33,327 bases of DNA from an uncultured Pseudomonadota bacterium (GTDB lineage: Bacteria; Myxococcota_A; UBA796; SXON01), in contig CAIMSU010000163.1 in the NCBI GenBank assembly GCA_903844155.1, positions 1 to 33,327 on the forward strand, in the 5' to 3' direction. The notes under the pieces were generated by a model, which saw only the letters and a program-made list of their open reading frames with translations, was not told the origin of the DNA and did no database searches. Below are positions 29 through 33,327 of the stretch, piece by piece; position 1 is the first letter of the stretch; every line of letters starts with the position of its first letter. The position numbers were made by a program, and so were the translations under genes.

Positions 29-47
29 TAGACGTGTCCATCCCGGG

Positions 48-88
48 CGGCGAGCGATCGCCATCCAATCCGCGTGTTTCGGCACGCA
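48..88 (+). promoter_or_regulatory. Paired stem-loops before micro-ORF C
   Basis: The first stem-loop is GGCGA-GCGA-TCGCC, with a GNRA-type loop (48-61 region). The second is GCGTG-TTTCGG-CACGC (73-88 region). The same pair occurs before micro-ORF B at about 33133-33171, with changed bases that keep pairing: TCGCC becomes TCGTC, still paired by G-U, and GCGTG/CACGC becomes GTGCG/CGCGT. Base changes that preserve pairing suggest the RNA fold is selected, probably to present or restrict the downstream Shine-Dalgarno. Confidence 0.5.
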
Positions 89-112
89 CAACCACCAACC
101 AAGGAGGGCATC

Positions 113-127
113 ATGGGCAGCTGCTGA
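113..127 (+). CDS. Micro-ORF C of the leader array (MGSC)
   Basis: Four sense codons and a stop (ATG GGC AGC TGC TGA), preceded at close spacing by a near-perfect Shine-Dalgarno AAGGAGGG. The upstream sequence matches that before micro-ORFs A (33005) and B (14 and 33200). It has a stem-loop GCGTG-TTTCGG-CACGC (73-88), an A/C-rich linker, then the Shine-Dalgarno. Translation is likely from the quality of the site. Whether the peptide matters, or only the ribosome's presence does, is unknown. It is repeated at 33299-33313 because of the terminal overlap. Confidence 0.45.
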   Translation: MGSC

Positions 128-133
128 GAGCGT

Positions 134-233
134 CCGTCCCCGGCTGAAGCCAGCGCCGGTGGATGGGTCAAGCGTGTCGGTCTGGCAACGAGAGCTACGC
201 GCCCGGTCCGGTCCTGCAGACCAGATCGGGCGC
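134..233 (+). ncRNA. Pseudoknot-like leader RNA element, copy 2
   Basis: Left arm 134-144 pairs with 155-166 as 11 base pairs with one bulged T. The apical loop contains GCCAG (149-153), which can pair with CTGGC at 182-186 to form a pseudoknot. A second hairpin pairs GCGCCCG (199-205) with CGGGCGC (227-233). Copy 1 at 33032-33125 has the same architecture and spacing with compensatory pairs. This copy lies directly upstream of the gene at 257, so it is probably its 5' leader. I recognise no known RNA family. Confidence 0.55.
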
Positions 234-256
234 CGGGCGTTCAGGACGGTGCGCTG

Positions 257-1204
257 ATGTCCGCCCAGCCAGAATCGTCGTGCTGCCTCGTCTGCGGCAA
301 GATCCCTGTGGGCCGCTACACCAGCTGGGAGAACGGCGGGGTCGCCTGCGGACACTGCAAGGCTTCACGTCCGCCCTGCCTCGTCTGCGGCAGGCCAGCC
401 GTGCGAGGACGACGGGGCGGTGGTGCATTGAACCTGCCGAACATCTGTGCCAGCTGTGACGCCACGGGGCGAAGGTGTACCTGCTGCACCGGGCTCGTTG
501 GGACGCATCTGTCCTGGATTGGCGAGAACAAGGAGCGGATCTTCTGCTCCGCGTGCGCGAGGGGAGCGCGGTGTGCCATCTGCCAGGCCCCCGTTCCTAC
601 CCGCTCACGACCTGGCCCGGACGGGCGACGGTTCTGTCAGGACTGCCGCGAGATGGGGATCTTCGACCCCGCCCAGATCCACGCCCTCGCAAACGAGGCC
701 CGGGCCTGGATGCTCGACACGCTCGCGATGCCGCTCCGTGAGTTTGAGCGATGCGAGATCCTGCTCGTGGACCGACGAGCCTTCGGCCCTCCCGCACGAC
801 CTGCGCCCAACCGACTCGGCGGACCAGCCGTCGCGTCGGCGCGTGCCGGCGACTTCCGCTGCTCCACGCTAACATCGGGAACAACCATGGTGCATCTTCG
901 TGATCTCCGCGTCCGCGTGGTCTCTGGGCATCCAACCGCAGCGACCCGGCTCATCCTCGCGCATGAGCTCGCTCACCTTTGGCAGGCAGAGCAGCATCTT
1001 CGCCAGGACCTCACCATCCGCGAGGGCCACGCTGTCTGGGTCGAGCACCAGCTCGCCACCAGTCGCGGGGAGACGGCGCTGGCCCAGGCGCTGGAGAACA
1101 GCACCGACCCGATCTACGGGGACGGGTTTCGCGCTGTGCGCGCGATGCTCCAGGGAGGCCGGGCGATGGACGCGGCCCGCGTGATGGTCCAGAGGTTCTC
1201 GTGA
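257..1204 (+). CDS. Multi-zinc-finger DA1-like metallopeptidase
   Basis: A 315-aa protein. The N-terminal 140 residues hold many Cys pairs (CLVCG, CGHC, CLVCG, CASC, CTCC, CSAC, CAIC, CQDC), consistent with several LIM-like or zinc-ribbon knuckles. The C-terminal half carries a zincin motif, LAHELAH (HExxH at 236-240), followed about 16 residues later by a REGHAVWVEHQL segment that could supply the third ligand. This order, LIM-like fingers followed by HExxH and a Glu-rich helix, matches the DA1 family, known as ubiquitin-activated peptidases in plants and sparsely present in bacteria. The start is placed at ATG 257, after AGGACGG. The gene overlaps the next start by GTGA and heads the operon behind the structured leader. 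Protease activity is inferred from the motif; the substrate is unknown. Confidence 0.7.
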   Translation: MSAQPESSCCLVCGKIPVGRYTSWENGGVACGHCKASRPPCLVCGRPAVRGRRGGGALNLPNICASCDATGRRCTCCTGLVGTHLSWIGENKERIFCSACARGARCAICQAPVPTRSRPGPDGRRFCQDCREMGIFDPAQIHALANEARAWMLDTLAMPLREFERCEILLVDRRAFGPPARPAPNRLGGPAVASARAGDFRCSTLTSGTTMVHLRDLRVRVVSGHPTAATRLILAHELAHLWQAEQHLRQDLTIREGHAVWVEHQLATSRGETALAQALENSTDPIYGDGFRAVRAMLQGGRAMDAARVMVQRFS

Positions 1205-3973: not shown

Positions 3974-4941
3974 TGTCCAACCTGCCCTCCCTCCCCTCCC
4001 CCGACACCGCCCTGATCGCTGGCCTGATCCCGCTCGCAGAGCGCGCCGTGGCCATGGCCGACGCCGCCCAGGCCCCGAGCACTCGACGTGCCTACGACCG
4101 CGCCTGGTCCGGCTTCGAGCGATGGACCGCTGCGCGGGGGCTCGCCTCTCTCCCGGCCATGCCCGAGACGCTGGCGATGTACCTGACCGACCGTGCGGAG
4201 GCCGTGAAGGTCTCCACGTTGGAGCAGGAGCTCGCCGCCATCGTCGAAGCGCACCGCAAGGCCGATGTCCCTTCGCCGACGGACAACCGCGATCTCCAGC
4301 TCGTCTGGAAGGGCATCCGACGCACCTACGGCAAGCCAAAGGTCGGGAAGTCACCGGTCGGCGTTCTCGACCTGGCGCGCATGGTGGCCGAGCTCGGGGA
4401 CACACCGAGCGGCATTCGTGATCGCGCGCTCCTCCTCCTGGGCTTCGCGGGTGCCCTGCGGCGCTCCGAGCTGGTCGCGGTCGACGTGGAGGACCTCGCG
4501 CCGAATCCGGACGGTTTTGCCTTGATAATCAAGCGCTCAAAGTCAGACGGCGAAGGCGAGGGGCAGCGCATCGGGATCCCGAACGGGCGACGGCCGGAGA
4601 CCTGTCCGGTGCTCGCCATCCGCGCCTGGCTGCAACTCGCGAACATTAAAGCCGGCCCCGTGTTCCGCTCGGTGGACCGCCATGGCAACATCGGCCCCGA
4701 ACGCCTCGGCGATCGGGCCGTCGCCGAGGTCGTGAAGCGAGCGGCCCACGCCGTTGGTCTGGATGAAAAGGCGCTCGGCGGACACTCGCTCCGATCGGGG
4801 CTGGTCACCGAAGCCGTCCGGGCGGGCGTGAGCGAGCGAGCCATCATGGCCCAGACCCGCCACAAGAGCTTGATCACGCTGCGCGGCTACATCCGGTTGG
4901 GGTCGCTGTTCCTGGACAACCCGGCGGCGGCGTTGCTGTAG
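3973..4941 (+). CDS. Tyrosine recombinase (XerC/D-like)
   Basis: A 322-aa site-specific recombinase. The N-terminal core-binding helices span about residues 30-115. The catalytic domain shows the full set: Arg163 in GALRRSELV, a Lys in the IIKRSKSD beta-hairpin, His271 and Arg274 in HSLRSG, His297 in TRHKSL and nucleophile Tyr306 in GYIRLGS. GTG 3970 directly precedes ATG 3973; the ATG is preferred. Family members resolve plasmid dimers or integrate mobile DNA. Here a plausible substrate is the 11-6-11 palindrome at 10139-10166. A second copy of its last 36 codons lies at 5506-5613. Confidence 0.93.
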   Translation: MSNLPSLPSPDTALIAGLIPLAERAVAMADAAQAPSTRRAYDRAWSGFERWTAARGLASLPAMPETLAMYLTDRAEAVKVSTLEQELAAIVEAHRKADVPSPTDNRDLQLVWKGIRRTYGKPKVGKSPVGVLDLARMVAELGDTPSGIRDRALLLLGFAGALRRSELVAVDVEDLAPNPDGFALIIKRSKSDGEGEGQRIGIPNGRRPETCPVLAIRAWLQLANIKAGPVFRSVDRHGNIGPERLGDRAVAEVVKRAAHAVGLDEKALGGHSLRSGLVTEAVRAGVSERAIMAQTRHKSLITLRGYIRLGSLFLDNPAAALL

Positions 4942-4951
4942 GCGGCGCTCA

Positions 4952-5458
4952 ATGATCACGGATTTCCGCGGCCCCCACCGCTGGCTCTCGAACTTCCACC
5001 TCGCGAACATCGTGTTCGAAGGGGAGATCTATCCGTCCAGCGAGCACGCCTACCAGGCCGCAAAGGCAGACTGCGTGGGGACATCTGCGCTCTTTCCCGA
5101 GCCCTCTACGGCTGGACTCGCAGCGTGCGACGAGGAGCGGGCCCGCTTCCGGGAGCCCGGGTTGACGTGCAGGGACGCCAAGCGCCTCGGGAGCGCAATT
5201 CGGCTCCGGTGGGATTGGGACGACGTACGGCTCGGCATCATGGAGACCATTCTGCGCGACAAGTTTTCGCGGCACGCGGACCTGCAGCGCCTGTTGCTGG
5301 AGACCGGCGACGAGGTCTTGGTCGAGGGAAATTCCTGGGGGGACCGGTATTGGGGCGTGTCTCCACCTCCGCCGGAGGGGACGGGGGACAATCACCTCGG
5401 TCGCCTGCTGATGCAGATCCGGCGCGAACTGCGGGAGACGGACACCGATCGGCCATGA
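4952..5458 (+). CDS. NADAR/YbiA-family protein
   Basis: A 168-aa protein with both family signatures. The N-terminus reads FRGPHRWLSNF followed by FEGEIYPSSEHAYQAAK. The C-terminus reads VEGNSWGDRYWGV followed by GDNHLGRLLMQIR. NADAR proteins act on N-glycosidic bonds; YbiA cleaves riboflavin intermediates. Some members reverse guanosine ADP-ribosylation of DNA made by DarT toxins. No gene here looks like a DarT, so this copy is an orphan or protects against an outside toxin. The stop overlaps the start of the 52-aa recombinase-tail ORF (ATGA). Confidence 0.9.
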   Translation: MITDFRGPHRWLSNFHLANIVFEGEIYPSSEHAYQAAKADCVGTSALFPEPSTAGLAACDEERARFREPGLTCRDAKRLGSAIRLRWDWDDVRLGIMETILRDKFSRHADLQRLLLETGDEVLVEGNSWGDRYWGVSPPPPEGTGDNHLGRLLMQIRRELRETDTDRP

Positions 5459-5613
5459 TCCCAGCAGGACAGACCGTTGAGCCGTCCGGGCTCGTGACCG
5501 AGAGAGAGCGCGCGATCATGGCGCAGACCCGCCACAAGAGCTTGATCACGCTCCGCGGCTACATCCGGCTCGGCTCGCTGTTTCTGGACAATCCGGCGGC
5601 GGCGTTGTTGTAG
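5455..5613 (+). CDS. 52-aa recombinase C-terminal mini-ORF (or remnant)
   Basis: Starts at ATG 5455, overlapping the NADAR stop by ATGA. From residue 11 it follows the recombinase C-terminus: SGLVTE, a six-residue deletion, then 35 identical residues including the catalytic His (27) and Tyr (36). Over the last 36 codons, including stop, the two copies differ at ten bases, all synonymous. The donor was therefore under protein-level selection long after the copies diverged. It may be a fragment of a second, now deleted, recombinase, or a kept mini-protein that could act in trans or interfere with recombinase assembly through the C-terminal helix. The open frame and coupled start keep the second option alive. 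Confidence 0.6.
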   Translation: MIPAGQTVEPSGLVTERERAIMAQTRHKSLITLRGYIRLGSLFLDNPAAALL

Positions 5614-5860: not shown

Positions 5861-7774
5861 TTATTGTTGCGGCCCCTTGTCCTTCTTTCGGCGGGGCACG
5901 AAGGGAGCAGGGACCGCTCGCTTCTTCGCCGCCGCCGCCTGCCCACCTCGCCGGGCGGACGACTCGATTCGGAGGGCGTCTCGGAGCATCTCGACAGCAG
6001 CCTCGCTCTGGAACGTGATCCTCCCGCTGGAGGCCTTTCGCAGCCAGGGGTAGTCCCCCTTGACCCAGGCTGCGACGGCCTGTACGGCGACCGGCATCGG
6101 GATGCCGGTGGCGGTAGCGAGCTGCTGCAGCATCGCCTCGTCGAACACCACCCCGACGGTGGTGGCTTCCTCCGGTCTGGCCCGAAGTTCGCCGATGATT
6201 CGCCACTGGAAGTCGCACAGAGCCGGCCAGTAGCGGTTGTTGGCGAAGGAGAGGTCTGGGAGCAGGTGTTCCCGGGTGAAGGGCAACGGGTACAGCCATC
6301 GTGCCGGGCCGCGGATGGTCTCGGGGAGCTTGTGGACGTACCCGGGTGCGAGGGCGGCTCCGACGTCGATCCACAACTTGGCACGACGGCCGCGGGTTTC
6401 GCCCAAGCGGTAGGGGCGGCCGATGATCGCGGGGAAGAAAGGGTCGTTGGCTCGGTACTGGGCCAGCGCCTCAAGAACGCTCGGGAGGAGGTGCCGGTCC
6501 TTGGTATTGATGCCGTAGCGGTCGGCGACCTCGGCGTACCCGCCCTCGTACTCGATCCGGTTGAACGGGTTCTTGCCGTCGCGTGCCTGCTGGTCCACGT
6601 CGATGAGCCACCCGCGGATGAGGCGCTCGACCATGAGTCTCGGCATTTGGTCGATGCCGCTTCGGAGGAGATCCTGGACGGCGTCGGCATCGACCTTCAC
6701 GACGTCGGACCGGTCGAGGTAGCGCCCGATCACGACGTTGGAGGAGTCGAGCACCTCGACACCTCCAAGTGCATCGCGAGTCGCACCCGGCGTGCGGAAG
6801 AGCGAGATCTGGGTCTGGGCGTAGGCGGTCACGGCCGGCGGGTGCCGCGGCATGCGCTCGGCCTTCGGCCTCACGATGGCGCGCCAGAGCTCCCGGCAGA
6901 GTCCGCGCGGCCAGCGAGCCGGGACCGGGCCCCGCTCCGGTCCGTCCGTCAGCGGTCCTCGCGTGATGTCGACCCACAGGGCCAGCAAGTCGGCGTCCCC
7001 GTAGAGCTTCATCTCGGGAAAGAGGAACCCTGTCGTCTGGCTGTAGGCTGCCCAGCGCGACCGCGATGCCTCGCGGACCTCCTCGGCGTAGTCGCGCCCG
7101 GGCTCTCGGAGGTAAATCTCTACCCATTCCGCGAATACGGCGTCGAAGGCGAACATGCCGTCCCGAACCGGCCAACGATTCGCCATCTCCCTCCGTTGCC
7201 GCTCCGTCCACGCCGCAAGGAGCCGGTTGCGCGCAGTCTCGTCGCTCGCCGCCCAGTCGTCGAAGTTCACGGTGGAGGAGGCGTCGTCCGCCGGGCCGGG
7301 CTCGCCAAGGATGTTCAGGGCGCGGAAGGCGGTCAGCAATGAGGCGGCAGCCTCCTGGAGAGCGCGTGCCAGAAGATCCACGACGGGAAGCTGGTTCAGT
7401 CGGTCTGGAGCCTCCTTCTCCAGCGCCGACCGCGCTACGGCGTGGTGGACCGGGTTGAGGACGTCGGCGGCGAGCAGGACCAGGATCCCAAGCGCGTGGA
7501 GGTAGAGGCTAGTCGGCGTGACCTCGGTGGCGAACGCGCGCTCCTCGGCACCGTGGTCGCGTGTTGACGCCCCCGGCACGAGGAGAGGGGCGCTTCGGAC
7601 GAGCGCGAGCTCCCCGGAGAACCTCTGGAATACCTGCGCGAGGTTCGCGGGAGTGTTCGCTGTCGGAAGGTGCTCGCGCCAATTCGGTTCGGGCACCCCC
7701 TGGACGATCGGCACGAGATCCCATCCGTCGCCAAGATCGACGGTGGTGGTTGTGCCGGTGGTGGAGACGATCAC
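5861..7774 (-). CDS. Putative replication protein, 637 aa
   Basis: Last gene of the primase-helicase run; its start overlaps the helicase stop by ATGA. The protein is helical and soluble, with no P-loop or HUH/relaxase motif visible. Two segments look like helix-turn-helix or winged-helix units: one near residue 420 (GGYAEVADRYGINTKDRHLL) and one near residue 570 (MLQQLATATGIPMPVAVQ). The C-terminus is strongly basic (RKKDKGPQQ). Position in the operon and the possible DNA-binding segments suggest a replication initiator or helicase loader, but I do not recognise the family. The 22-bp-spaced direct repeats lie just past its 3' end. Confidence 0.72.
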   Translation of the reverse strand: MIVSTTGTTTTVDLGDGWDLVPIVQGVPEPNWREHLPTANTPANLAQVFQRFSGELALVRSAPLLVPGASTRDHGAEERAFATEVTPTSLYLHALGILVLLAADVLNPVHHAVARSALEKEAPDRLNQLPVVDLLARALQEAAASLLTAFRALNILGEPGPADDASSTVNFDDWAASDETARNRLLAAWTERQRREMANRWPVRDGMFAFDAVFAEWVEIYLREPGRDYAEEVREASRSRWAAYSQTTGFLFPEMKLYGDADLLALWVDITRGPLTDGPERGPVPARWPRGLCRELWRAIVRPKAERMPRHPPAVTAYAQTQISLFRTPGATRDALGGVEVLDSSNVVIGRYLDRSDVVKVDADAVQDLLRSGIDQMPRLMVERLIRGWLIDVDQQARDGKNPFNRIEYEGGYAEVADRYGINTKDRHLLPSVLEALAQYRANDPFFPAIIGRPYRLGETRGRRAKLWIDVGAALAPGYVHKLPETIRGPARWLYPLPFTREHLLPDLSFANNRYWPALCDFQWRIIGELRARPEEATTVGVVFDEAMLQQLATATGIPMPVAVQAVAAWVKGDYPWLRKASSGRITFQSEAAVEMLRDALRIESSARRGGQAAAAKKRAVPAPFVPRRKKDKGPQQ

Positions 7775-12974: not shown

Positions 12975-13535
12975 ATGTCTCCTCGTCCCTCCTTCTACGC
13001 CCTCGCCTCCGAGCAGGACGGCTACTTCGCCGCCTGGCAGGCGGTCGCCGCTGGCTACTCTCGTCCGGCGCTCACCCAGGCTGTGGATGCCGGTAGGCTC
13101 GTGCACGCCCGCCGCGGGGTCTACCGGCTGGTCGAGTACCCGGCGGGGGAGAACGAGGACATCGTTCAGGCCTGGCTGTGGAGCACCGGCCTCGACGAGG
13201 AGCACGAGGGCGGTGTCGTCAGCCACGAAACGGCGCTCGCCCTGCACGGCCTGTCCGACGCTCTGCCTGCGCTCATCCATCTGAGCGTGCCTGCGAGTTG
13301 GCGTTGTCGCCGCATGAAGGTGCCCGCCGGCGTTCGGCTCCACTTCCAGGACGTACCGCCCGAGGACCGCGCGTGGCACGGGGCCGTGCCGGTGACAAAG
13401 CCGCTGCGCGCGGTCATCGACAGCGCGGTCGATCATGTGCAGCCCGACCTCGTCGCGCAGGCGGTCCGAGACGGGGTTGCGCGGGGGTTGTTCGCGGCCG
13501 CCGATGTCGCACGGATCCTCCCGGTGACCGCATGA
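12975..13535 (+). CDS. abiEi: AbiEi-type antitoxin
   Basis: A 186-aa protein. The N-terminal winged-helix part (FAAWQAVAAGYSRPALTQAV, then GRLVHARRGVYRLVEYP) is typical of the transcriptional-regulator AbiEi antitoxin family. The middle VVSHETALALHGLSD and the C-terminal AVPVTKPLRAVIDSA also fit. It neutralises the toxin encoded downstream and represses its own promoter by binding inverted repeats. Its stop overlaps the next start (ATGA). As a type IV toxin-antitoxin module beside parA it probably serves plasmid stability and possibly phage exclusion. Confidence 0.88.
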   Translation: MSPRPSFYALASEQDGYFAAWQAVAAGYSRPALTQAVDAGRLVHARRGVYRLVEYPAGENEDIVQAWLWSTGLDEEHEGGVVSHETALALHGLSDALPALIHLSVPASWRCRRMKVPAGVRLHFQDVPPEDRAWHGAVPVTKPLRAVIDSAVDHVQPDLVAQAVRDGVARGLFAAADVARILPVTA

Positions 13536-14452
13536 CGCGCACCTATGCGAATCCGGCCGCGTTCAAGGCTGCCCTGGAGTCGCGGCTGATGACGCACGCG
13601 ACCGAGGCGGGGAGACCGATCAACCGCGTTCGCCAACTCCTGGTCATGGAGCGGTTTCTGGCGCGAGTCATCGTGGACTTCGAGGCGGCGGTGCTCAAAG
13701 GCGGGCTTGCGATGGAGCTGCGTCAACCTGGGAAGGCGCGCACGACCAAGGACGTGGACCTGCGGCTGATGGGCCGCTCCGACGCGATCCTCGATCGGCT
13801 ACAGGCTGCGGGTCGTCGCGAGCTCGGGGACTTCCTCTCCTATGAGGTCCGGATCGACAGCGCGCATCCTGTCATCGAGGCCGATGGTCTGCCTTACGAA
13901 GGCCAGCGCTTTCGAGCGGAAGCCGTCCTCGCCGGCAAGATCTACGGCTCCGCGTTCGGCGTGGACGTTGCCCTCGCGGAGCCGCTCGTCGGCACGCCTG
14001 ACCGTCTGGTGGGGAGCGACGCGCTCGACTTCATCGGCATCATCCGCCCGGAGTTCCTCGCCTACCCAGTGGCGACGCACATCGCCGAGAAGCTGCACGC
14101 CTACACGCTGCCACGCCCTCGACCGAACTCCCGCGTGAAAGACCTGCCGGACATCGCGCTCCTCGCCCAGCAGGGGCCGCTCGATGCTGAGGAACTGCGC
14201 ACGGCGATCGCGGCGACGTTCGCCAACCGGGCGACGCATCCGGTGCCGACCGTGGTGCCAGATCCGCCAGCGGTGTGGGCGAACGTGTACGCGCGCATGG
14301 CGAGGGATGAGGGGCTGGCGTGGGCGAACGTCGACGTGCTTCTGGCGGCGGTCCGTGGGTTTCTGGGACCCGTGCTTGTCGGAGGTGCGAGGATCTGGGA
14401 CCCGGCCCTGTGGGGATGGGTGACGGGATTCGAACTCCGTAGCGAGCTTTAG
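13532..14452 (+). CDS. abiEii: AbiEii-type nucleotidyltransferase toxin
   Basis: A 306-aa protein starting at ATG 13532 inside the antitoxin stop. The nucleotidyltransferase signature is present: LKGGLAMEL (55-63) with the GG pair, then RTTKDVDLRL carrying the DxD metal-binding acids (74-76). Further on are GKIYG, HIAEKLHAY and a VKDLPDIALL helix typical of the family. Members transfer nucleotides onto tRNA acceptor ends and stop growth. The longer frame opening at 13178 is excluded because it runs through the antitoxin gene. The stop overlaps the convergent gene's stop by four bases. Confidence 0.9.
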   Translation: MTRTYANPAAFKAALESRLMTHATEAGRPINRVRQLLVMERFLARVIVDFEAAVLKGGLAMELRQPGKARTTKDVDLRLMGRSDAILDRLQAAGRRELGDFLSYEVRIDSAHPVIEADGLPYEGQRFRAEAVLAGKIYGSAFGVDVALAEPLVGTPDRLVGSDALDFIGIIRPEFLAYPVATHIAEKLHAYTLPRPRPNSRVKDLPDIALLAQQGPLDAEELRTAIAATFANRATHPVPTVVPDPPAVWANVYARMARDEGLAWANVDVLLAAVRGFLGPVLVGGARIWDPALWGWVTGFELRSEL

Positions 14453-23467: not shown

Positions 23468-23514
23468 GCCCGCATTGGCATCTCCAAGATACTCATGGAG
23501 TACCTATTGCGGGC
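23468..23514. terminator. Nested hairpin between convergent genes
   Basis: GCCCGCA (23468-23474) pairs with TGCGGGC (23508-23514), enclosing an inner CTCCA/TGGAG stem (23482-23486 with 23496-23500). It lies between the 371-aa membrane gene and the converging kinase gene, overlapping the last kinase codons. It is a plausible bidirectional stop, without a T-run. Confidence 0.42.
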
Positions 23515-25430
23515 TGCGACTGTGGCGCGGTACAGCTGGTCACGGTGAGCGTCGGCCGGTCCGGCGTTGGAGCCACCTCACAGCGCCATCGCGCCTCGGG
23601 GTCGTAGCCCTCGCACCCGTAGAACTCCATGACCCCGGGCTCGGCGGCCGGCCGGTTCTTGTGAGAGCAGATCTGCCAGGGCTTGGTCTCCAAAACTCCT
23701 GACCCTGACGAGGTCCCTGCTACGAGGATGTCGGGTGACACCGGAGGCGATGCGACCGTGAGTTCGGCTGCGGGGGCCGATCCAGAGCCTGTACGTGGCG
23801 CGAGAGTAATCGGCGCGCCGGGCGCTGCCGAGGCCCGCTCTACGACAAGTTCCACCGCGGGTTCGGAGCGGGGCTCGGCGATCGGTGCGACACTCCCAGC
23901 CGGCGGCGCGCTTGTCGACAGGGAGTCGACCCCTGCTTTCGTCTCGGTGTACGTGTGCTCGAAGAACGCAAAGACGCCCCCACCGAACACGAATCCAAAA
24001 ACGGCGCCCCAAAACACAAGTGTCCAGACGACGATGACCACCCACGCGACGCGGGGGCCGACTATCGAGACTAGTGTAGCGTAGCTTCGGTCGTAGCTCT
24101 CCTTGAAGGCCGCGAGTGCAGGCGAGCCCCTGGTCGTCGAGTCGTAGCCCTCCTTAAAGGCCGCGTAGCCCTCCTTAAAGGCCGCCGCGAACCCACTGCC
24201 CGAATCAGGCGAGCCCTCGGCAGTCGAGAGGCTCTGGCTCTGATCTCCGGACACCGGCGCCGCTACGGGGCCAGGCGGAGTGAACCAAGGGGCTTCGTCC
24301 GGCGAGATGTCCGCGACAGGCGACAGACCGAACGTCAAGGGCACCTCCGCGGGAGATGAGGGTGGCCGCTGGGGGCTGGGGACTACCTGAGATGGGATCG
24401 GTGAACTTGGCCGTCGACTCGGGCCCGACGGCGCGGGAGGTCTGGTCGGCGCAGGCGCGAACAGCATCGGCTGGCGGGCCTGGCCGTCTGCCGGTTCCTC
24501 GGGAAGGAGCGGTACCTCGTCACTAAACCGGCATTCCTTCTCGGGCGGCGCCTCGCAGATCCTCTGAATGGCATCGAGCAGCCCAGGTCGAAGCGTGCGC
24601 AGGGCGCGCATCTTCTCTGAGGCAAAGCACGTAAAATCCGCCTCCCGAAACAACAGCAGCGTGTCATCGCCGTATGCCTCCCAAAGATCGGAGTCATCGG
24701 CCAGCAGGAGCAACGAAGCGTAGATCACCAACGCGGGAAGCACATCCGCGTGCAGCACCTTTCTCCCAAGCTCGCGTCGGCGAGGATGCGAAAATCCGGC
24801 CACCCCGAAAATGCTCTCAACATTCCCCGACATCTCCGGCACTACGACAGAATCGTAGTCGACGAGTCGAACTAACGGCCCATCCGCGGCGTAGGCTACG
24901 AAGATGTTGTCCGGCTGCAGATCACCATGAGCTATCTTTCTGGACTCCAGATCATGGATGACGGCAGCCCAACTCGCAGCAAGTGCGCAAAGTGCCCCCC
25001 TATCTTTGCGGTGATCCTCGATGAACATGCCCAATGGGACATCCGCAACCCACTCCATGACGACCACGGGAAGCACGTCGCGTCGCATACGCAGGCCCGC
25101 ATCATGGTATCTCGCTGTCACAAAGGAACTCGGCATTCTTACTTGACGGATGTGCTCTTCGATCAGCCGGTACTCGGTCGCTCGCGAAGTAGCGGACCTG
25201 AATACACGAACTGCGACATGGCCAAGCCCGGCGCAGCATGCGCATCTGTGCCCCGTAGTGTCGCGGCTCGGCAACGCATACTGCACGACGACCGCCGACT
25301 TCCCGGACCCGTCCAGACTGACTTGGCCGGTCGCCGGAGTCGCCCCCTGCAGGCACGCGGGAAGGAGTCCCCCCGCCGCCAACGCTTCCAGGATGGCAGC
25401 GTCTGTGAATACATCAGCGTCGTCGAGCAT
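23493..25430 (-). CDS. Transmembrane protein kinase of TerY-P-type triad
   Basis: A 645-aa protein from ATG 25430 (site AGCGGAG); a GTG at 25463 would add 11 residues. The kinase domain has catalytic loop HGDLQPDN (168-175) and VDYDSV in place of DFG, but the usual VAIK lysine reads VAVR, so activity may be atypical. A Pro-rich linker follows, then three AFKEGY/AFKESY repeats (about 416-446), one membrane helix (about 461-490) and an outer part with Cys near CSHKNR, YGCEGY and RCEV. Kinase, PP2C phosphatase and VWA protein in a row are the known TerY-P triad of stress and tellurite-type systems. The AFKEGYD motif recurs in the small protein at 32737. Confidence 0.82.
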   Translation of the reverse strand: MLDDADVFTDAAILEALAAGGLLPACLQGATPATGQVSLDGSGKSAVVVQYALPSRDTTGHRCACCAGLGHVAVRVFRSATSRATEYRLIEEHIRQVRMPSSFVTARYHDAGLRMRRDVLPVVVMEWVADVPLGMFIEDHRKDRGALCALAASWAAVIHDLESRKIAHGDLQPDNIFVAYAADGPLVRLVDYDSVVVPEMSGNVESIFGVAGFSHPRRRELGRKVLHADVLPALVIYASLLLLADDSDLWEAYGDDTLLLFREADFTCFASEKMRALRTLRPGLLDAIQRICEAPPEKECRFSDEVPLLPEEPADGQARQPMLFAPAPTRPPAPSGPSRRPSSPIPSQVVPSPQRPPSSPAEVPLTFGLSPVADISPDEAPWFTPPGPVAAPVSGDQSQSLSTAEGSPDSGSGFAAAFKEGYAAFKEGYDSTTRGSPALAAFKESYDRSYATLVSIVGPRVAWVVIVVWTLVFWGAVFGFVFGGGVFAFFEHTYTETKAGVDSLSTSAPPAGSVAPIAEPRSEPAVELVVERASAAPGAPITLAPRTGSGSAPAAELTVASPPVSPDILVAGTSSGSGVLETKPWQICSHKNRPAAEPGVMEFYGCEGYDPEARWRCEVAPTPDRPTLTVTSCTAPQSQPAIGTP

Positions 25431-26691
25431 CTGGGCTCCGCTCAGAACTCCCGATGACAGCACGCTCGAAGCGCTCCTGGCGTTCGCGCAACTCCGCTAC
25501 CTGCTGCTCCAGTTCCATCAGACGACGCTGGATGACGAGAACCCGATCTTCACGGTGCCATGACCACCCTGAGACAAGGCTGCTAAGCAGCCGAGCGACA
25601 CAATGTCCATACCTACGAACAAGCGTCACGGGGGTCACGAGCGCACCACGGACGCGGGCGGCTGCGACTGCCCAGTGAATCGCCTCCGGGCCGCTCTCCA
25701 CATGCTGCTCGGTTGGCGCACCGGGGTACGAGGGCGTCTCGCTGCTCGCAGTGCCCGCGAGAATGCTGCCCGTGGTCAGGCTCGGTAGGTTCACGCCCCG
25801 CCGCTCCCCTTCGCGGGCCACGTCCTCATCACCCGAACCTACTGCTTCCCCGACATCCACCATCAGCACGCCGACGTCATCGTCGTGCAGGCGAATGGGG
25901 CGCGACTCCCGCCATGCCGCGATCAGTCCAGCCGGGTCCGCACTCTGCGTGAGGTCATCTATGATGGATGCGGCGCTTCCAGCCGCCGCGTGCTCCAGGA
26001 GGAACTTCGCCATTGCGTCCGTGGCTAGCAGCAATCGATCACCCGCCCGCACCTCGAGAATGATCGAGCGCGGGATGGTTCGTGCCCGCTCGTCAGCCGA
26101 ACGTTCCAGAAGCGGAAGCGTCGAAAAGCAATCCGGAGCGTCATCGAACTGGTCGGGCCATTCCATGGGAAACGACACGACAACCGTGGAGTCCCGAATC
26201 AGGAAGAAGCAGGTGTCCCCCACCCCAATCACGGTGCATGTGAGCCCACCAGTTGACGGAGTCAGCGCCATCGTCAGCAGCGTGCTCCACGCTGGCGTGC
26301 TTCGACCGGACCCCAATGCGCGATTGGCCTGCCACAATTCGAGTGGTCGACCGAGCCATTCATCGCGCTCGGCTTCTAAGGTCGGAAGCGCGACCGCGAC
26401 GGCCTCGTGCACCAACAAGCCTGCCCAGACGCCAGAATCGACGCCGGCGGTCACTCCATCGGCGGCGGCGTACCGCATTGACGCGTCGTCCCCTAAGACC
26501 CGGTCTTCGTTTCCCTCGGCTGACTTGTCGCTTGCAGGGCATGTAAATGCCCAATGGCGGGCGACTCGCGGGACGGGTGCCTGCACTGTCCCATCCGCCG
26601 CGCGAGGCCCCCCGAACGCCGTCCCGCGCACGAACTGCGCCGGTGGACGCCCCCGAAGCGCCGGCTTGACGGCCCTGGATCGGCGGATCAT
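25414..26691 (-). CDS. PP2C-type protein phosphatase of the triad
   Basis: A 425-aa protein; ATG 26691 overlaps the VWA stop by ATGA, which is preferred to the longer frame at 26772. PP2C landmarks are NEDRVLGDD with the metal-binding Asp (62-64 region), AAADGVTAGV (76-82), VIGVGDTCFFLI, LLLATDAMAKF and HDDDVGVLMVD. Beyond the phosphatase lies a variable linker and a C-terminal coiled coil (IQRRLMELEQQVAELRERQ). It should reverse phosphorylation by the downstream kinase. Confidence 0.87.
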   Translation of the reverse strand: MIRRSRAVKPALRGRPPAQFVRGTAFGGPRAADGTVQAPVPRVARHWAFTCPASDKSAEGNEDRVLGDDASMRYAAADGVTAGVDSGVWAGLLVHEAVAVALPTLEAERDEWLGRPLELWQANRALGSGRSTPAWSTLLTMALTPSTGGLTCTVIGVGDTCFFLIRDSTVVVSFPMEWPDQFDDAPDCFSTLPLLERSADERARTIPRSIILEVRAGDRLLLATDAMAKFLLEHAAAGSAASIIDDLTQSADPAGLIAAWRESRPIRLHDDDVGVLMVDVGEAVGSGDEDVAREGERRGVNLPSLTTGSILAGTASSETPSYPGAPTEQHVESGPEAIHWAVAAARVRGALVTPVTLVRRYGHCVARLLSSLVSGWSWHREDRVLVIQRRLMELEQQVAELRERQERFERAVIGSSERSPDARRR

Positions 26692-28343
26692 AACTGTAGA
26701 GGTCCCCGGCTCGCGAACCGCAGGACCGCAGTCAGATGCGTCACTGCCGCGCCGAATACGAGTCCCCGGCACCCGTTTTGGACCACCACCGACCCTTTCA
26801 GCGAGTCTTTTGCGTGGTTCGCCATCCAGTCAGGTAGGTCGGAGCTGATGTCGAACATCAGCCTACATTCTGGAGTCATTCGCTCAACGTCGGTCGCATT
26901 TGGAAATTGAATCGCAGAATCCTGCGATTGCTTACTCACATGGTAGGTCAGAACGATGCCGTTCCCGAACTCCGTTTGAATCGCCTTGAACGCGTTGGCA
27001 GCGGCGCGTGTCCTGTCCTCAGTCCCCGCATCGGGAACTCCATCGGTGATGTTGATGAGAATCGGTGGAAGCGACTCCTTATGTTCCGCAGCCCATGGGT
27101 CACACCATTTCCAGGCTAGTTCTATTGCCGCGCCCATCGGGGTCCCCGGAAATCCGCCCGACTCGTCGGAGGGAGATGGCGCGATCCACTGCCCGTTTTC
27201 CTCCTTGTTGGCGGCCATGACGCTCAGAGGAACCAGTGTGGCGCCAGTCGTAGCCCACGACTGTAGCTTTGGCCCCCACGCAGACGCGGGCGTGGCCCCA
27301 TATCCGATCACTCCCACCACCAGGCGCGGCTGCACGACTTTTTGCCTGGTACACATGTCCGCGATGTCTTGAAGTGCAGCGTTCACCGCGCCCGTACAGA
27401 TGTCTCGCAGGGTTTCACCTCCCACCGCGACATGGTCTTTCATGGAGCCAGACTGGTCGATCAAGATGACCACACAGCCAGGATGACGAACGCTGAAGGG
27501 GTTGATGTCCGTGCGTATTTGGCGCCCGGCAGCGACTGTCCGGCCGGGCGGTGGCGGCGCGCTCGCAATGGTCGCCCGGAGCGCGGCCAGCATTAGCGGG
27601 TCCCGCTGCAGCGCGTGAGCATCCCACTGCAGCGGTGCTCCTTCTGCGTCAGGACCAACCATCCGCATCCACGCACCTCTTTGCGCTTCTGGGAGGCGGT
27701 GCGCATCACTCCCGAGCTCCTCACGCAGGGCGGCGGCACAACCGCCGTCGAGAATGAGTCGCACCATGTCCACATGGTCACTCGTTGCCGCGAGGTAGAG
27801 CCGAATGGCTCGAAACAACGATTCCATCGTAGTAATGGGAATCCGTCTCCCGTCGTTGGTCGGAACGGAAAGGTGCGGCCACGCATCATTCGGCGCAATC
27901 AGCCAGTGGTTGCCCAAAGTGCTCAGATGCTTTGCCTTAGCACCAAGCGGATCGTCCAGCTTTCCGGTGAGCTTACCCTCGGACGTCATGGCGGCTACGA
28001 TCACGAGCGGAAAACGAGCCTCCAGTGGTACATCATGCAGTATCGCGGCCCCCAGGACTGCTCCATGCCAGCTCCGGCCTTCAAATGTCCCGTTGCTCGG
28101 AATCTCGACTTCGACCGTGAATCCGTGTCCAGGTTGCGCCTGGAGTGGAAGGAAGTGGAGGACATCGTCGAAGCCCTTGATGTCCTGTCCCCCAAAGCCA
28201 CCTGGAACCGAGTAGTGTCCGTTATAGTAGGCTCTATTATCGCCCCTCCGGACCTGCAGCTGACCATTTTTCCCAACAGTGTTCATTCTACGTGTCGTCA
28301 GCGAAAACACGCCTGCGGTAGTCACAAGGTGTACAGCGCTCAC
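26688..28343 (-). CDS. Lon-protease-like plus VWA (TerY-like) protein
   Basis: A 551-aa protein starting at GTG 28343 (GTGA overlap, GGAG seven bases before). The VWA part begins near residue 285: VVILIDQSGSM gives the DxSxS metal site (296-300), with later ITDGVPDAG. The N-terminal 150 residues read like a Lon (S16) protease domain: EVEIPSNGTFEGRSWHGAVL places Ser91 where the catalytic Ser sits, AAMTSEGKLTGKL matches the AMTGEITLRG strand, and GAKAKHL places Lys136 or Lys138 as the partner. Lon-like plus VWA in one chain, next to a phosphatase and kinase, is an unusual form of the TerY protein. The Lon call rests on motif order only. Confidence 0.78.
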   Translation of the reverse strand: MSAVHLVTTAGVFSLTTRRMNTVGKNGQLQVRRGDNRAYYNGHYSVPGGFGGQDIKGFDDVLHFLPLQAQPGHGFTVEVEIPSNGTFEGRSWHGAVLGAAILHDVPLEARFPLVIVAAMTSEGKLTGKLDDPLGAKAKHLSTLGNHWLIAPNDAWPHLSVPTNDGRRIPITTMESLFRAIRLYLAATSDHVDMVRLILDGGCAAALREELGSDAHRLPEAQRGAWMRMVGPDAEGAPLQWDAHALQRDPLMLAALRATIASAPPPPGRTVAAGRQIRTDINPFSVRHPGCVVILIDQSGSMKDHVAVGGETLRDICTGAVNAALQDIADMCTRQKVVQPRLVVGVIGYGATPASAWGPKLQSWATTGATLVPLSVMAANKEENGQWIAPSPSDESGGFPGTPMGAAIELAWKWCDPWAAEHKESLPPILINITDGVPDAGTEDRTRAAANAFKAIQTEFGNGIVLTYHVSKQSQDSAIQFPNATDVERMTPECRLMFDISSDLPDWMANHAKDSLKGSVVVQNGCRGLVFGAAVTHLTAVLRFASRGPLQL

Positions 28344-31740: not shown

Positions 31741-32400
31741 ATGACCCGATTCACCGACTCCGATTCCGATGGACCCGACCAGGTTCCGACCGCAGGGCGG
31801 CCGTCCGCAACCCTGGCTGATCCGCGCGATGCAGCGCTGCGCGTGTCGATCGCAGGCACCCAGGTTCGCGCCGCCAAGGAACGAGCGCGTAAGACCTTTG
31901 GCGCCTTGAAGAACCCCGGCGAGGCCCCGCCCTACGAGCGCGCGATCCTCCTCGCCCTCGGCGTCACTTCCTTGGTCGCCGCAGGTGCCCTGGGAGTGCT
32001 GCTGGCGGGCCCTCTCCCGCCAGCTTTGGCCTGGACCGTGGCTGTCGGTTTCGGTGCCGCGAGCGGGGTCATCGGGGCCCGCGCGTCCGCGAAGGCGTGG
32101 GCCGTGAGCGCCGCGCTCGGGGCCGTAGGCGTCGGCGCCGTGGTGGCTGGAGCCCTTACCCTCGGTGCTCTGGCACCCGCACTCCTGCTGCTCGCGACGG
32201 CGTTCGTCGGCGGCTTGGGCTCGCTCGGCCTTCTGCACCATGTCACCGCCTGGGAGAAGGCCTCCGTCGCCTACAAGGCTGCCGAGCGAGCTGACGCACG
32301 GCTGAATGGCCGCCGCGAGCCAACTCCGGTGGTCGCAACGTCGCAGAAATCTGGAGCGGCCTCGTCCGATCCAGCAGGGTCTGTGGGTCTTGATGAGTGA
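31741..32400 (+). CDS. Four-helix membrane protein, 219 aa
   Basis: Start ATG 31741 follows CCGAGGCTACCCACC. A polar head of about 65 residues is followed by four hydrophobic Gly/Ala-rich helices (ILLALGVTSLVAAGALGVLL through LLLLATAFVGGLGSLGLLHH) and a polar tail. The layout, with cytosolic head and tail around four helices, is like the paralogous pair at 21672 and 22335, but I see no clear sequence match to them. Function unknown. Confidence 0.7.
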   Translation: MTRFTDSDSDGPDQVPTAGRPSATLADPRDAALRVSIAGTQVRAAKERARKTFGALKNPGEAPPYERAILLALGVTSLVAAGALGVLLAGPLPPALAWTVAVGFGAASGVIGARASAKAWAVSAALGAVGVGAVVAGALTLGALAPALLLLATAFVGGLGSLGLLHHVTAWEKASVAYKAAERADARLNGRREPTPVVATSQKSGAASSDPAGSVGLDE

Positions 32401-32702
32401 AGGTCTGGAAACATCAGCCGCTTCGGCGGCGAGGAGGTCGTGACGAGTAGCCTGTAATTCTGTTGGTTTGTTTCTTCTCTTTGCGTGTCTGTATCTGTCA
32501 GTGGGCGTCCCGCGTTCGGCGATGATGCCAAGTCCGTTGGTTGAAAGTTCATGTCTGCTTCTGTTGGCGTCCATGAAGACGCCGAATCTCGGTTGAGAGT
32601 GAGTGGTGAGTGAGCGTCTGTAGTTGCGTAAGTCCCGTGACGACGGGCAGCCGGTAGCGGGTGGCGCGGTGGGCGAAAGCCCGCCGCGCCCTTTGCTTTT
32701 TG
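32401..32702 (+). ncRNA. Candidate non-coding RNA or long leader
   Basis: A 300-base stretch without a convincing gene, with T-rich, lower-GC composition unlike its surroundings. It begins with a UUCG-capped stem GCCGC-TTCG-GCGGC (32417-32430). It then holds GGCGTC-CATGAA-GACGCC (32566-32583) and CCCGT-GACG-ACGGG (32634-32647), and ends in a strong terminator hairpin. Several stems followed by a terminator suggest a stable small RNA, or an attenuated leader for the gene at 32737. No known RNA family was recognised and no clear promoter can be assigned. The minus-strand frame across it (32271-32720) has no ribosome site or family features. Confidence 0.4.
32663..32702 (+). terminator. Rho-independent terminator
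   Basis: A 12-bp stem GGCGCGGTGGGC (32663-32674) pairing with 32679-32690 with one T-G wobble, capped by a GAAA tetraloop, then CTTTGCTTTTT. It is the best intrinsic terminator in the window on the plus strand. Confidence 0.8.
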
Positions 32703-32736
32703 TGAGCCCGTGATCTCCACGGCCCAGAGGATCTCG

Positions 32737-32922
32737 ATGTCTTACGCCAACAATTACTCCGACTACTACGAGCGCAAGGCCTTCAAGGAGGGCTACGACG
32801 ATGGGCGCTCCGGCCGCTACCACAACCCCTACAAGTCCAATTTCGGTACAAACTACCTCGACCTCATCCGAGTCTACAACGAGGGGTATGCCGATGGGAC
32901 GCGGGACCGATGGACCCGGTAG
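32737..32922 (+). CDS. RMF/CrpP-like small protein, 61 aa
   Basis: Start ATG 32737 follows AGAGGATCTCG. The chain reads KAFKEGYDDGRSGRYHNPYK and then VYNEGYADGTRDRW. The A-x-x-x-G-x-x-x-G...NPY...G-x-x-x-G pattern is the signature of the ribosome-modulation-factor/CrpP fold, found in small ribosome-binding and accessory proteins. Tyr-rich and basic residues suit RNA contact. AFKEGYD also occurs in the kinase juxtamembrane repeats. The micro-ORF leader array begins just downstream, so a link to translation control is tempting but unproven. Confidence 0.6.
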   Translation: MSYANNYSDYYERKAFKEGYDDGRSGRYHNPYKSNFGTNYLDLIRVYNEGYADGTRDRWTR

Positions 32923-33004
32923 CGCAACAAGCGCGCACCGTGCGGCGGATCGCTGTCCGATCCGCGCGCTTCTGCGCGTCAAACCAACAACAAAGGAGTG
33001 CGCC
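32923..33004 (+). promoter_or_regulatory. Stem-loops before micro-ORF A
   Basis: An 8-bp stem GCGGATCG (32944-32951) with CGATCCGC, loop CTGTC, is followed by CGCGC-TTCT-GCGCG, an A/C-rich linker and AAAGGAG. This is the first and most diverged unit of the array. It has the same order of parts as the units before micro-ORFs B and C but a different first stem. Confidence 0.48.
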
Positions 33005-33025
33005 ATGGGCTTCGGAAACTTGTAA
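33005..33025 (+). CDS. Micro-ORF A of the leader array (MGFGNL)
   Basis: ATG GGC TTC GGA AAC TTG TAA, six codons, preceded by AAAGGAG. All three micro-ORFs of the array begin ATG GGC and have strong ribosome sites. The stop codons differ (TAA, TAG, TGA). A first pseudoknot element follows directly. Confidence 0.45.
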   Translation: MGFGNL

Positions 33026-33031
33026 ACGCGT

Positions 33032-33125
33032 CCATCCCCGGTCAAAGCCAGAACCGGTGGGTGGGTCAAGCGTGTCGGTCTGGCTACGGGAGCAACGCGC
33101 CTGGTCCGGTCTGGGGACCAGGCGC
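33032..33125 (+). ncRNA. Pseudoknot-like leader RNA element, copy 1
   Basis: Left arm 33032-33042 pairs with 33053-33064 (11 bp, one bulged T). The loop heptamer AGCCAGA (33046-33052) is the exact complement of TCTGGCT (33079-33085). Twelve bases on, GCGCCTGGTCC (33097-33107) pairs perfectly with 33115-33125. Compared with copy 2 at 134-233, the loop-closing T-A pair is C-G there, and the sixth pair of the last hairpin is C-G instead of T-A. Compensatory changes between copies support a selected RNA fold. Confidence 0.58.
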
Positions 33126-33132
33126 ACCTTGT

Positions 33133-33199
33133 GGCGGCGAGAGATCGTCGTCCAATTCGTGCGTTTCGGCGCGTACAACCATCAACCGAGGAGTGAACC
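33133..33199 (+). promoter_or_regulatory. Paired stem-loops before micro-ORF B
   Basis: GGCGA-GAGA-TCGTC with a GNRA loop and GTGCG-TTTCGG-CGCGT, then an A/C-rich linker and GAGGAG. It continues directly into micro-ORF B (33200-33214, same as 14-28). It aligns with the unit before micro-ORF C over about 70 bases. Confidence 0.5.
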
Positions 33200-33327
33200 A
33201 TGGGCAGCGTTTAGTAGACGTGTCCATCCCGGGCGGCGAGCGATCGCCATCCAATCCGCGTGTTTCGGCACGCACAACCACCAACCAAGGAGGGCATCAT
33301 GGGCAGCTGCTGAGAGCGTCCGTCCCC
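33187..33327. repeat. Terminal direct repeat (circular overlap), right copy
   Basis: Second copy of the 141-base overlap; it should be counted once when the circle is closed. It contains micro-ORFs B and C, and the pseudoknot element that follows micro-ORF C begins just before its end. Confidence 0.93.

Follow-up and report, generated by a model that had tools for sequence, protein, structure and literature searches.

An orphan tandem RNA array with mini-ORFs on a 33-kb plasmid: a possible translational leader of a DA1-like gene

Introduction

Two similar stretches, at 33032-33125 and 134-233, lie near opposite ends of the window (the whole stretch of DNA that was analyzed, 33,327 nt of contig CAIMSU010000163.1). 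The first-pass annotation described them as two copies of a pseudoknot RNA motif. The locus raises the question of whether the copies represent a conserved RNA fold, whether this fold is a pseudoknot, and what it does for the neighboring genes. We found that the copies belong to an array that is an orphan, putatively cis-regulatory RNA on one plasmid, outside every described RNA family. The initial observation is both stronger than noted (three units, mini-ORFs, and a strand-specific fold) and weaker (a pseudoknot without covariation).

Results

A tandem array on a circular plasmid

Assemblers frequently use a maximum k-mer of 141. The two ends of the window are identical over exactly 141 nt (1-141 = 33187-33327), so the contig closes into a circle of 33,186 bp. 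The source assembly comprises 375 contigs (8.1 Mb). The two fold copies are both real; since the contig is circular, they are in fact neighbors, 288 nt apart. They are parts of one tandem array of three related units with spacings of 195 and 99 nt, the third of which had been missed. The array is flanked by an RMF-like ORF and a DA1-like peptidase gene, all three on the plus strand. The components are as follows.

32737-32922, plus strand: upstream small gene, 61 aa, weakly RMF-like (PF04957, 18.3 bits, E 0.0025; the cut-off of 27.9 is not reached)
32938-33132, plus strand: unit 1 (U1), complete, with stem A, hairpin B, ribosome binding site (RBS), mini-ORF 1, fold, and hairpin C (repeat search, 70% to U2; blastn, 76% to U3)
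32964-32979, plus strand: hairpin B of U1, 6 bp with a TTCT/TTCG loop (UUCG-type); equivalents at 33159-33174 and 72-87 (sequence, folding)
33133-33231, plus strand: unit 2 (U2), with stem A, hairpin B, RBS, mini-ORF 2, and a truncated fold (repeat search)
33232-33327, plus strand: unit 3 (U3), first part, entering the terminal overlap (141-nt terminal repeat; 83% to U2)
46-256, plus strand: unit 3, complete, reaching the DA1-like start codon (sequence, terminal overlap)
257-1204, plus strand: downstream gene, 315 aa, with a Cys-rich N-terminus and a DA1-like peptidase C-terminus containing HELAH (PF12315, 23.7 bits; cut-off 25)

The units are up to 211 nt long and share one order: stem A (4 bp), hairpin B, a C/A-rich stretch with AAGGAG or GAGGAG, a mini-ORF, and the fold. 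The core of the fold is about 70 nt, and its parts are P1 (GCGT/ACGC), P2 with a GCCAG loop, CTGGC, and hairpin C. The leader part flanking the fold is present in three copies with 70-83% identity, and the two fold repeats are 85% identical over 94 nt. In U2, the fold ends after GTCCATCCC and most of it is lost; the last part of this unit also corresponds to 1-45. All 18 pair cells of hairpin B in the three units are standard, with one double and three one-sided changes.

The DA1-like gene is the likely regulatory target of the array. A promoter was searched for in the array region, and none was identified. A scan of the plus strand from 32350 to 33327 gave one terminator candidate, at 32663-32690, upstream of the array, and none after hairpin C of U1; inspection of the sequence revealed no T run after hairpin C of U3 (199-233). 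The putative switch is not followed by a hairpin with a U tract, the intrinsic terminator of a transcription attenuator. The strong terminator at 32663-32690 (GGCGCGGTGGGCGAAAGCCCGCCGCGCC then CTTTGCTTTT) lies in a 336-nt gap (32401-32736), which is possibly a small RNA gene or a 3' UTR. A tRNA/tmRNA search found none. The RMF-like gene sits immediately 5' of this array of ribosome binding sites, and a functional link between them is only a thought.

Several other features of the plasmid were observed. Direct repeats of 115 bp (4827-4941 and 5499-5613; 90% identical) both end in the last codons of a tyrosine integrase gene. Between them lies a NADAR-like gene (4952-5458), apparently a cassette that entered at the 3' end of the integrase gene and duplicated this end. 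On the minus strand, 23493-28343 encodes a kinase (STK_OB-like), a PP2C phosphatase, and a TerY-like VWA protein that adjoin each other as in TerY-P phosphorylation triads (PADLOC). An AbiEi/AbiEii abortive infection pair (12975-14452, plus strand; PADLOC) adjoins parA.

Mini-ORFs at a fixed distance from the fold

Each unit contains a very short ORF preceded by a Shine-Dalgarno sequence (SD); these elements, like the UUCG-type hairpin upstream of them, are absent from the first-pass annotation.

33005-33025, plus strand: mini-ORF 1, ATGGGCTTCGGAAACTTGTAA, MGFGNL-TAA, with AAGGAG upstream (sequence; SD energy -7.5 kcal/mol)
33200-33214, plus strand: mini-ORF 2, ATGGGCAGCGTTTAG, MGSV-TAG, with a second TAG next to it and GAGGAG upstream (sequence; SD energy -8.5)
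113-127, plus strand: mini-ORF 3, ATGGGCAGCTGCTGA, MGSC-TGA, in the frame of the DA1-like gene, with AAGGAG upstream (sequence; SD energy -11.4, the strongest of 34 sites)

The three SDs rank 1, 8, and 9 among the 34 start sites of the element. All three units retain the SD, ATGGGC, and an in-frame stop codon 4 nt ahead of the GTCC with which the fold begins. The distance from the ATG to the first base of GTCC is 25, 22, and 19 nt in units 1, 2, and 3, decreasing in steps of three, and the position of the stop is kept despite different codons (TAA, TAG, and TGA). Minigenes and leader peptides have the layout seen here, in which an SD and a start codon begin a very short ORF that lies ahead of a gene of the same orientation. 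In such an arrangement, the mini-ORFs would be translated.

Because an open frame crosses the array (from 32910 through all units to 257) and the spacings are multiples of three, a repetitive-protein reading was tested and rejected. No frame has an excess of differences at third positions, all six frames have negative codon scores (against +0.23 to +0.79 for genes of the element), and GC content by codon position is flat (0.63-0.66). By codon statistics, the array is non-coding.

A conserved fold on the plus strand

The hairpins of the fold were located as follows.

33032-33064, plus strand: P2 of copy 1, 11 bp with a bulged T and a 10-nt loop, GCCAG at 33047-33051 (folding z -3.1)
134-166, plus strand: P2 of copy 2, loop GCCAG at 149-153 (folding z -3.3)
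33097-33125, plus strand: hairpin C of copy 1 (copy 2: 199-233), no T tract after it (folding, pair comparison)

The two copies are present as the first-pass annotation described them. Both have the 11-bp stem with one bulged T and a loop whose GCCAG matches a complementary CTGGC further on (33080-33084 and 182-186); from CTGGC to the last hairpin, the distance is 12 nt in each. The variable pairs of P2 are A-T/G-T, T-G/T-A, and T-A/C-G, none of them broken; in the last hairpin, the change of T-A to C-G was found as claimed, and G-C additionally changes to G-T.

The gap-free core alignment of the two copies has 74 positions and 10 differences. When 10 substitutions of the same kinds were placed at random, a model of 20 pairs stayed unbroken in 1.4% of trials; if 4 of them had to fall in paired sites, this figure was 10.6%. 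Preservation of pairing across the two copies therefore has moderate statistical support, which is suggestive, not overwhelming. The consensus of the two copies calculated with RNAalifold has an energy of -33.5 kcal/mol on the plus strand (z -3.4). Column shuffles average -22.8 +/- 3.1, and one in 300 is equally stable; on the minus strand the consensus is no better than shuffles (z +0.7). The leader half alone is not unusual in the same test (z -0.75). Every wobble change reads G-T on the plus strand and A-C does not occur, which is the pattern that a plus-strand RNA should leave. The claim that covariation reveals a conserved fold is thus borne out for a structured RNA that keeps its pairing through substitutions, specifically on the plus strand, and does not extend to the pseudoknot helix, which is invariant. 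The longest invariant tract (alignment columns 36-58) falls mainly outside P2.

Pseudoknot or nested hairpin

Two features compete for the segment downstream of P2.

33080-33084, plus strand: CTGGC of copy 1 (copy 2: 182-186), the proposed loop partner, invariant (alignment)
33070-33100, plus strand: P3*, an alternative nested hairpin GCGTGT/ACGCGC of copy 1 (copy 2: 172-202; RNAalifold consensus)

In the GCCAG/CTGGC helix, all five pairs are invariant, and a sixth pair, A-T, becomes C x T and is lost in copy 2; the pseudoknot helix itself therefore shows no covariation. RNAalifold, which is pseudoknot-free, instead puts CTGGC and the conserved upstream "spacer" GCGTGT into P3*, and its consensus fold contains both P2 and P3*. 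The annotation had taken the base changes as direct evidence of the motif, and for the pseudoknot this does not hold: its helix does not vary, and RNAalifold prefers a nested hairpin with the same CTGGC. P3* has an energy of -13.6 kcal/mol in both copies, a stability that is not unusual (z about -0.9). The pseudoknot as such is unproven. Since CTGGC is used by the inner and not the outer part of P3*, a kissing interaction between the loops of P2 and P3* is possible in the predicted fold.

The 3' arm of P3* and the 5' arm of hairpin C have GCGC in common, and P1 uses ACGC too. Because of these shared arms, P1, P3*, and full-length hairpin C partly exclude each other in both copies. Mutually exclusive hairpins are the layout of a switch; any switching is putative.

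Searches for relatives

A scan of the window against Rfam 15 (4227 families) gave nothing at gathering thresholds, in agreement with the initial statement that no known family has this form. A permissive scan of the array region gave scores of 11-20 bits against family cut-offs of 40 or more, none credible. The 17-mer GGGTCAAGCGTGTCGGT of the invariant tract had 45 matches in 84,980 species genomes, which is about the number expected by chance, and none had flanking stems. Three stricter patterns had no match in viral contigs, and blastn against plasmids and phages gave short chance matches only.

Extension with Infernal, as the annotation had suggested, added no homologues: a covariance model of the fold (R2) found only the two copies in their own genome. 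The same two were the only matches of R2 across the order (63 genomes), the class (71 genomes), and a sample of the phylum (379 genomes), in which weak matches were judged to be noise. A model of the leader half (R3) recovered the three units and the duplicate in the overlap; among its best weak outside matches, those that were inspected were ordinary start sites (two in open 140-aa frames) or sequences without ATG. In the absence of a homologue, the conservation argument rests on two to three paralogous copies in one element.

Neighboring genes were also followed. Distant relatives of the DA1-like protein were found in genomes G003 and G031 only (about 30%); no array was recognized upstream in G003, and R2 reported no match in the stretches examined from the two genomes. 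Relatives of the primase occur in 13 of the 71 genomes of the class (G010, G011, G022, G050, G002, and others), and no array was recognized in the ten contigs examined. In G010, two small contigs also hold relatives of the element's DnaB and of the protein encoded at 5861-7774; therefore, a sister plasmid lineage probably exists.

Discussion

The array looks like a mini-ORF leader and probably works as one. More specifically, we tentatively propose, at somewhat less than even chances, that it is a cis-acting translational leader of the DA1-like gene coupled to the mini-ORFs. Ribosomes would bind at the start sites of the mini-ORFs, translate their 4-6 codons, and halt 4 nt before the fold. A ribosome on a mini-ORF stop codon would cover the 5' strands of P1 and P2, and the covered segment and the mini-ORF RBS would be kept from the pairing with the RBS and start codon of the DA1-like gene that folding predicts. 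In this way, a ribosome translating mini-ORF 3 would free the start of the DA1-like gene. If mini-ORF translation failed or was delayed, the fold would shift (P2 plus P3* or the pseudoknot, versus full hairpin C). Units 1 and 2 may act as earlier sensors or load ribosomes, or they may be duplicates in decay.

For free U3, folding predicts that the start region of the DA1-like gene is paired with the leader. The duplex between the 5' strand of P1/P2 and the DA1-like RBS has an energy of -18.8 kcal/mol, which 1% of the 25-mers of the element reach and which is the best of 34 RBSs, a modest, post hoc figure. The predicted accessibility of the DA1-like start is 0.08 and becomes 0.48 with a ribosome placed on the mini-ORF region, a gain that 3% of leaders match when their upstream sequence is shuffled; this too is a modest, post hoc effect, obtained from a nested-fold prediction at about 3% significance after several features had been examined. 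The gain suggests that the start of the DA1-like gene may be opened by ribosomes that occupy mini-ORF 3. Several facts stand against the leader model: the searches gave no homologue and no promoter, no gene directly follows copy 1, and one gene does not need two complete units. No sequestration of the U2 RBS like that of the DA1-like RBS was seen. Regulation of the DA1-like gene, its sign, and any signal are putative. A broader claim would be that ribosome sensors arrayed in series form a new class of RNA module, in which a fixed stop-fold distance and a two-hairpin switch, with a kissing or pseudoknot contact that excludes a third hairpin, control one plasmid operon; we consider this doubtful.

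Other explanations were weighed against the leader. The array could be a structured RNA with a ligand or protein partner (riboswitch-like, or binding the ribosome or the RMF-like protein), in which the GCCAG/CUGGC kiss joins P2 and P3*, the invariant tract GUCAAGCGUGUCGGUCUGGC is the binding core, and the mini-ORFs are secondary. The position of this tract mostly outside P2, the presence of both P2 and P3* in the consensus fold, and the general occurrence of tandem riboswitches suit such an RNA. We nevertheless regard it as unlikely: Rfam has no match even at permissive thresholds, a single element is known, and U2 lacks the fold yet has an RBS and a mini-ORF, with the leader half kept at least as well. 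Minigenes could also stabilize the mRNA by loading or holding ribosomes, or they could release peptidyl-tRNA; the fold would then serve as a pause site or RNase barrier. Strong SDs ahead of ORFs of 4-6 codons would fit, and the axe-txe minigene increases txe expression in cis (PMC8708949), but the conserved fold and the fixed stop-fold distance are left unexplained, and we give this reading a rather small chance. The chance is slightly smaller again for a recent tandem duplication of one leader that is decaying, the array itself being functionless. The truncation of U2 and the presence of two to three copies without homologues would be expected from decay; differences that keep pairing and stop position and a fold stability specific to the plus strand would not.

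The remaining readings are improbable to different degrees. DNA-level repeats (origin iterons, single-strand initiation hairpins, or recombination sites) might be suspected from tandem repeats by a gene boundary in an element with a primase, DnaB, and an integrase. This is improbable in view of the plus-strand G-T wobbles without A-C, the retained SD, ATG, and stop, and the location of the array, which is distant from primase/parA and shows no clear skew switch. Still less credible is that the array encodes a repetitive protein or that mini-ORF 3 is read through in frame into the DA1-like gene; open frames exist and the spacings of 195 and 99 are divisible by 3, but the coding tests described above (third-position substitutions, six-frame codon scores, and GC3) all speak against it. 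We give the least weight to a type III toxin-antitoxin RNA, with ToxI-like pseudoknot repeats ahead of a toxin gene. Tandem units, a possible pseudoknot, and a gene downstream recall that arrangement, but the downstream protein is DA1-like and not ToxN, PADLOC has no match, and the mini-ORF-bearing units, up to 211 nt long with a core of about 70 nt, are unlike ToxI repeats of about 35 nt.

If the leader model is true, the array is a compact cis-regulatory RNA of no described family that reads the ribosome occupancy of genes of 4-6 codons and is serially repeated. Gene callers miss mini-ORFs of such size; therefore, similar leaders may be widespread and unannotated. Should the array be no more than a duplication in decay, it would be a minor curiosity confined to one plasmid.

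Comparison with known systems

In the erm, cat, and amino-acid operon attenuators, the ribosome on a leader ORF chooses between alternative downstream folds. The array resembles them in having a short ORF ahead of such folds. Attenuators, however, have as a rule a single leader, whereas a tandem array is present here; in addition, MGFGNL, MGSV, and MGSC contain no visible stall motif or run of regulatory codons, and no intrinsic terminator follows hairpin C of U1.

Leaders of the ColIb-P9 type govern a replication initiator, using antisense RNA. The rep leaders of ColIb-P9, IncB, and IncL/M combine a RepY-type leader peptide with an RNA pseudoknot. As in the array, a short ORF in a plasmid leader is accompanied by a stem-loop that can pair with downstream sequence through its loop. 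Here, the neighbors are DA1-like and RMF-like genes and not a replication initiator, with the DA1-like gene downstream; the mini-ORF comes before the stem, and the units are in tandem. Both attenuators and these rep leaders act by related principles, with another layout and another target. Leaders of the rep type are cited in PMC10724649.

Type III toxin-antitoxin RNAs (ToxI, CptI) are likewise tandem RNA repeats, with a possible pseudoknot here as well, followed by a protein gene. ToxI units are H-type pseudoknots with repeats of about 35 nt (PMC8860590). In contrast, the units described here are much larger and carry mini-ORFs, and no ToxN-like protein is present: the neighbor of the repeats is DA1-like, with no PADLOC match, and not an endoribonuclease of the ToxN/CptN/TenpN type.

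The axe-txe minigene mg2 is the closest described case. It has 2 codons, lies in frame with txe and 15 nt before it, and increases txe expression in cis, perhaps by protecting the mRNA (PMC8708949). Like the mini-ORFs, it is very short, has an SD of its own, and precedes a gene that shares its reading frame and transcript; mg2 itself is translated, and a positive cis effect has been proposed. The arrangements differ in that mg2 has no array or conserved fold after its stop codon, whereas here ORFs of 4-6 codons occur in three copies, and the stop of mini-ORF 3 (125-127) is separated by 129 nt from the DA1-like start (257).
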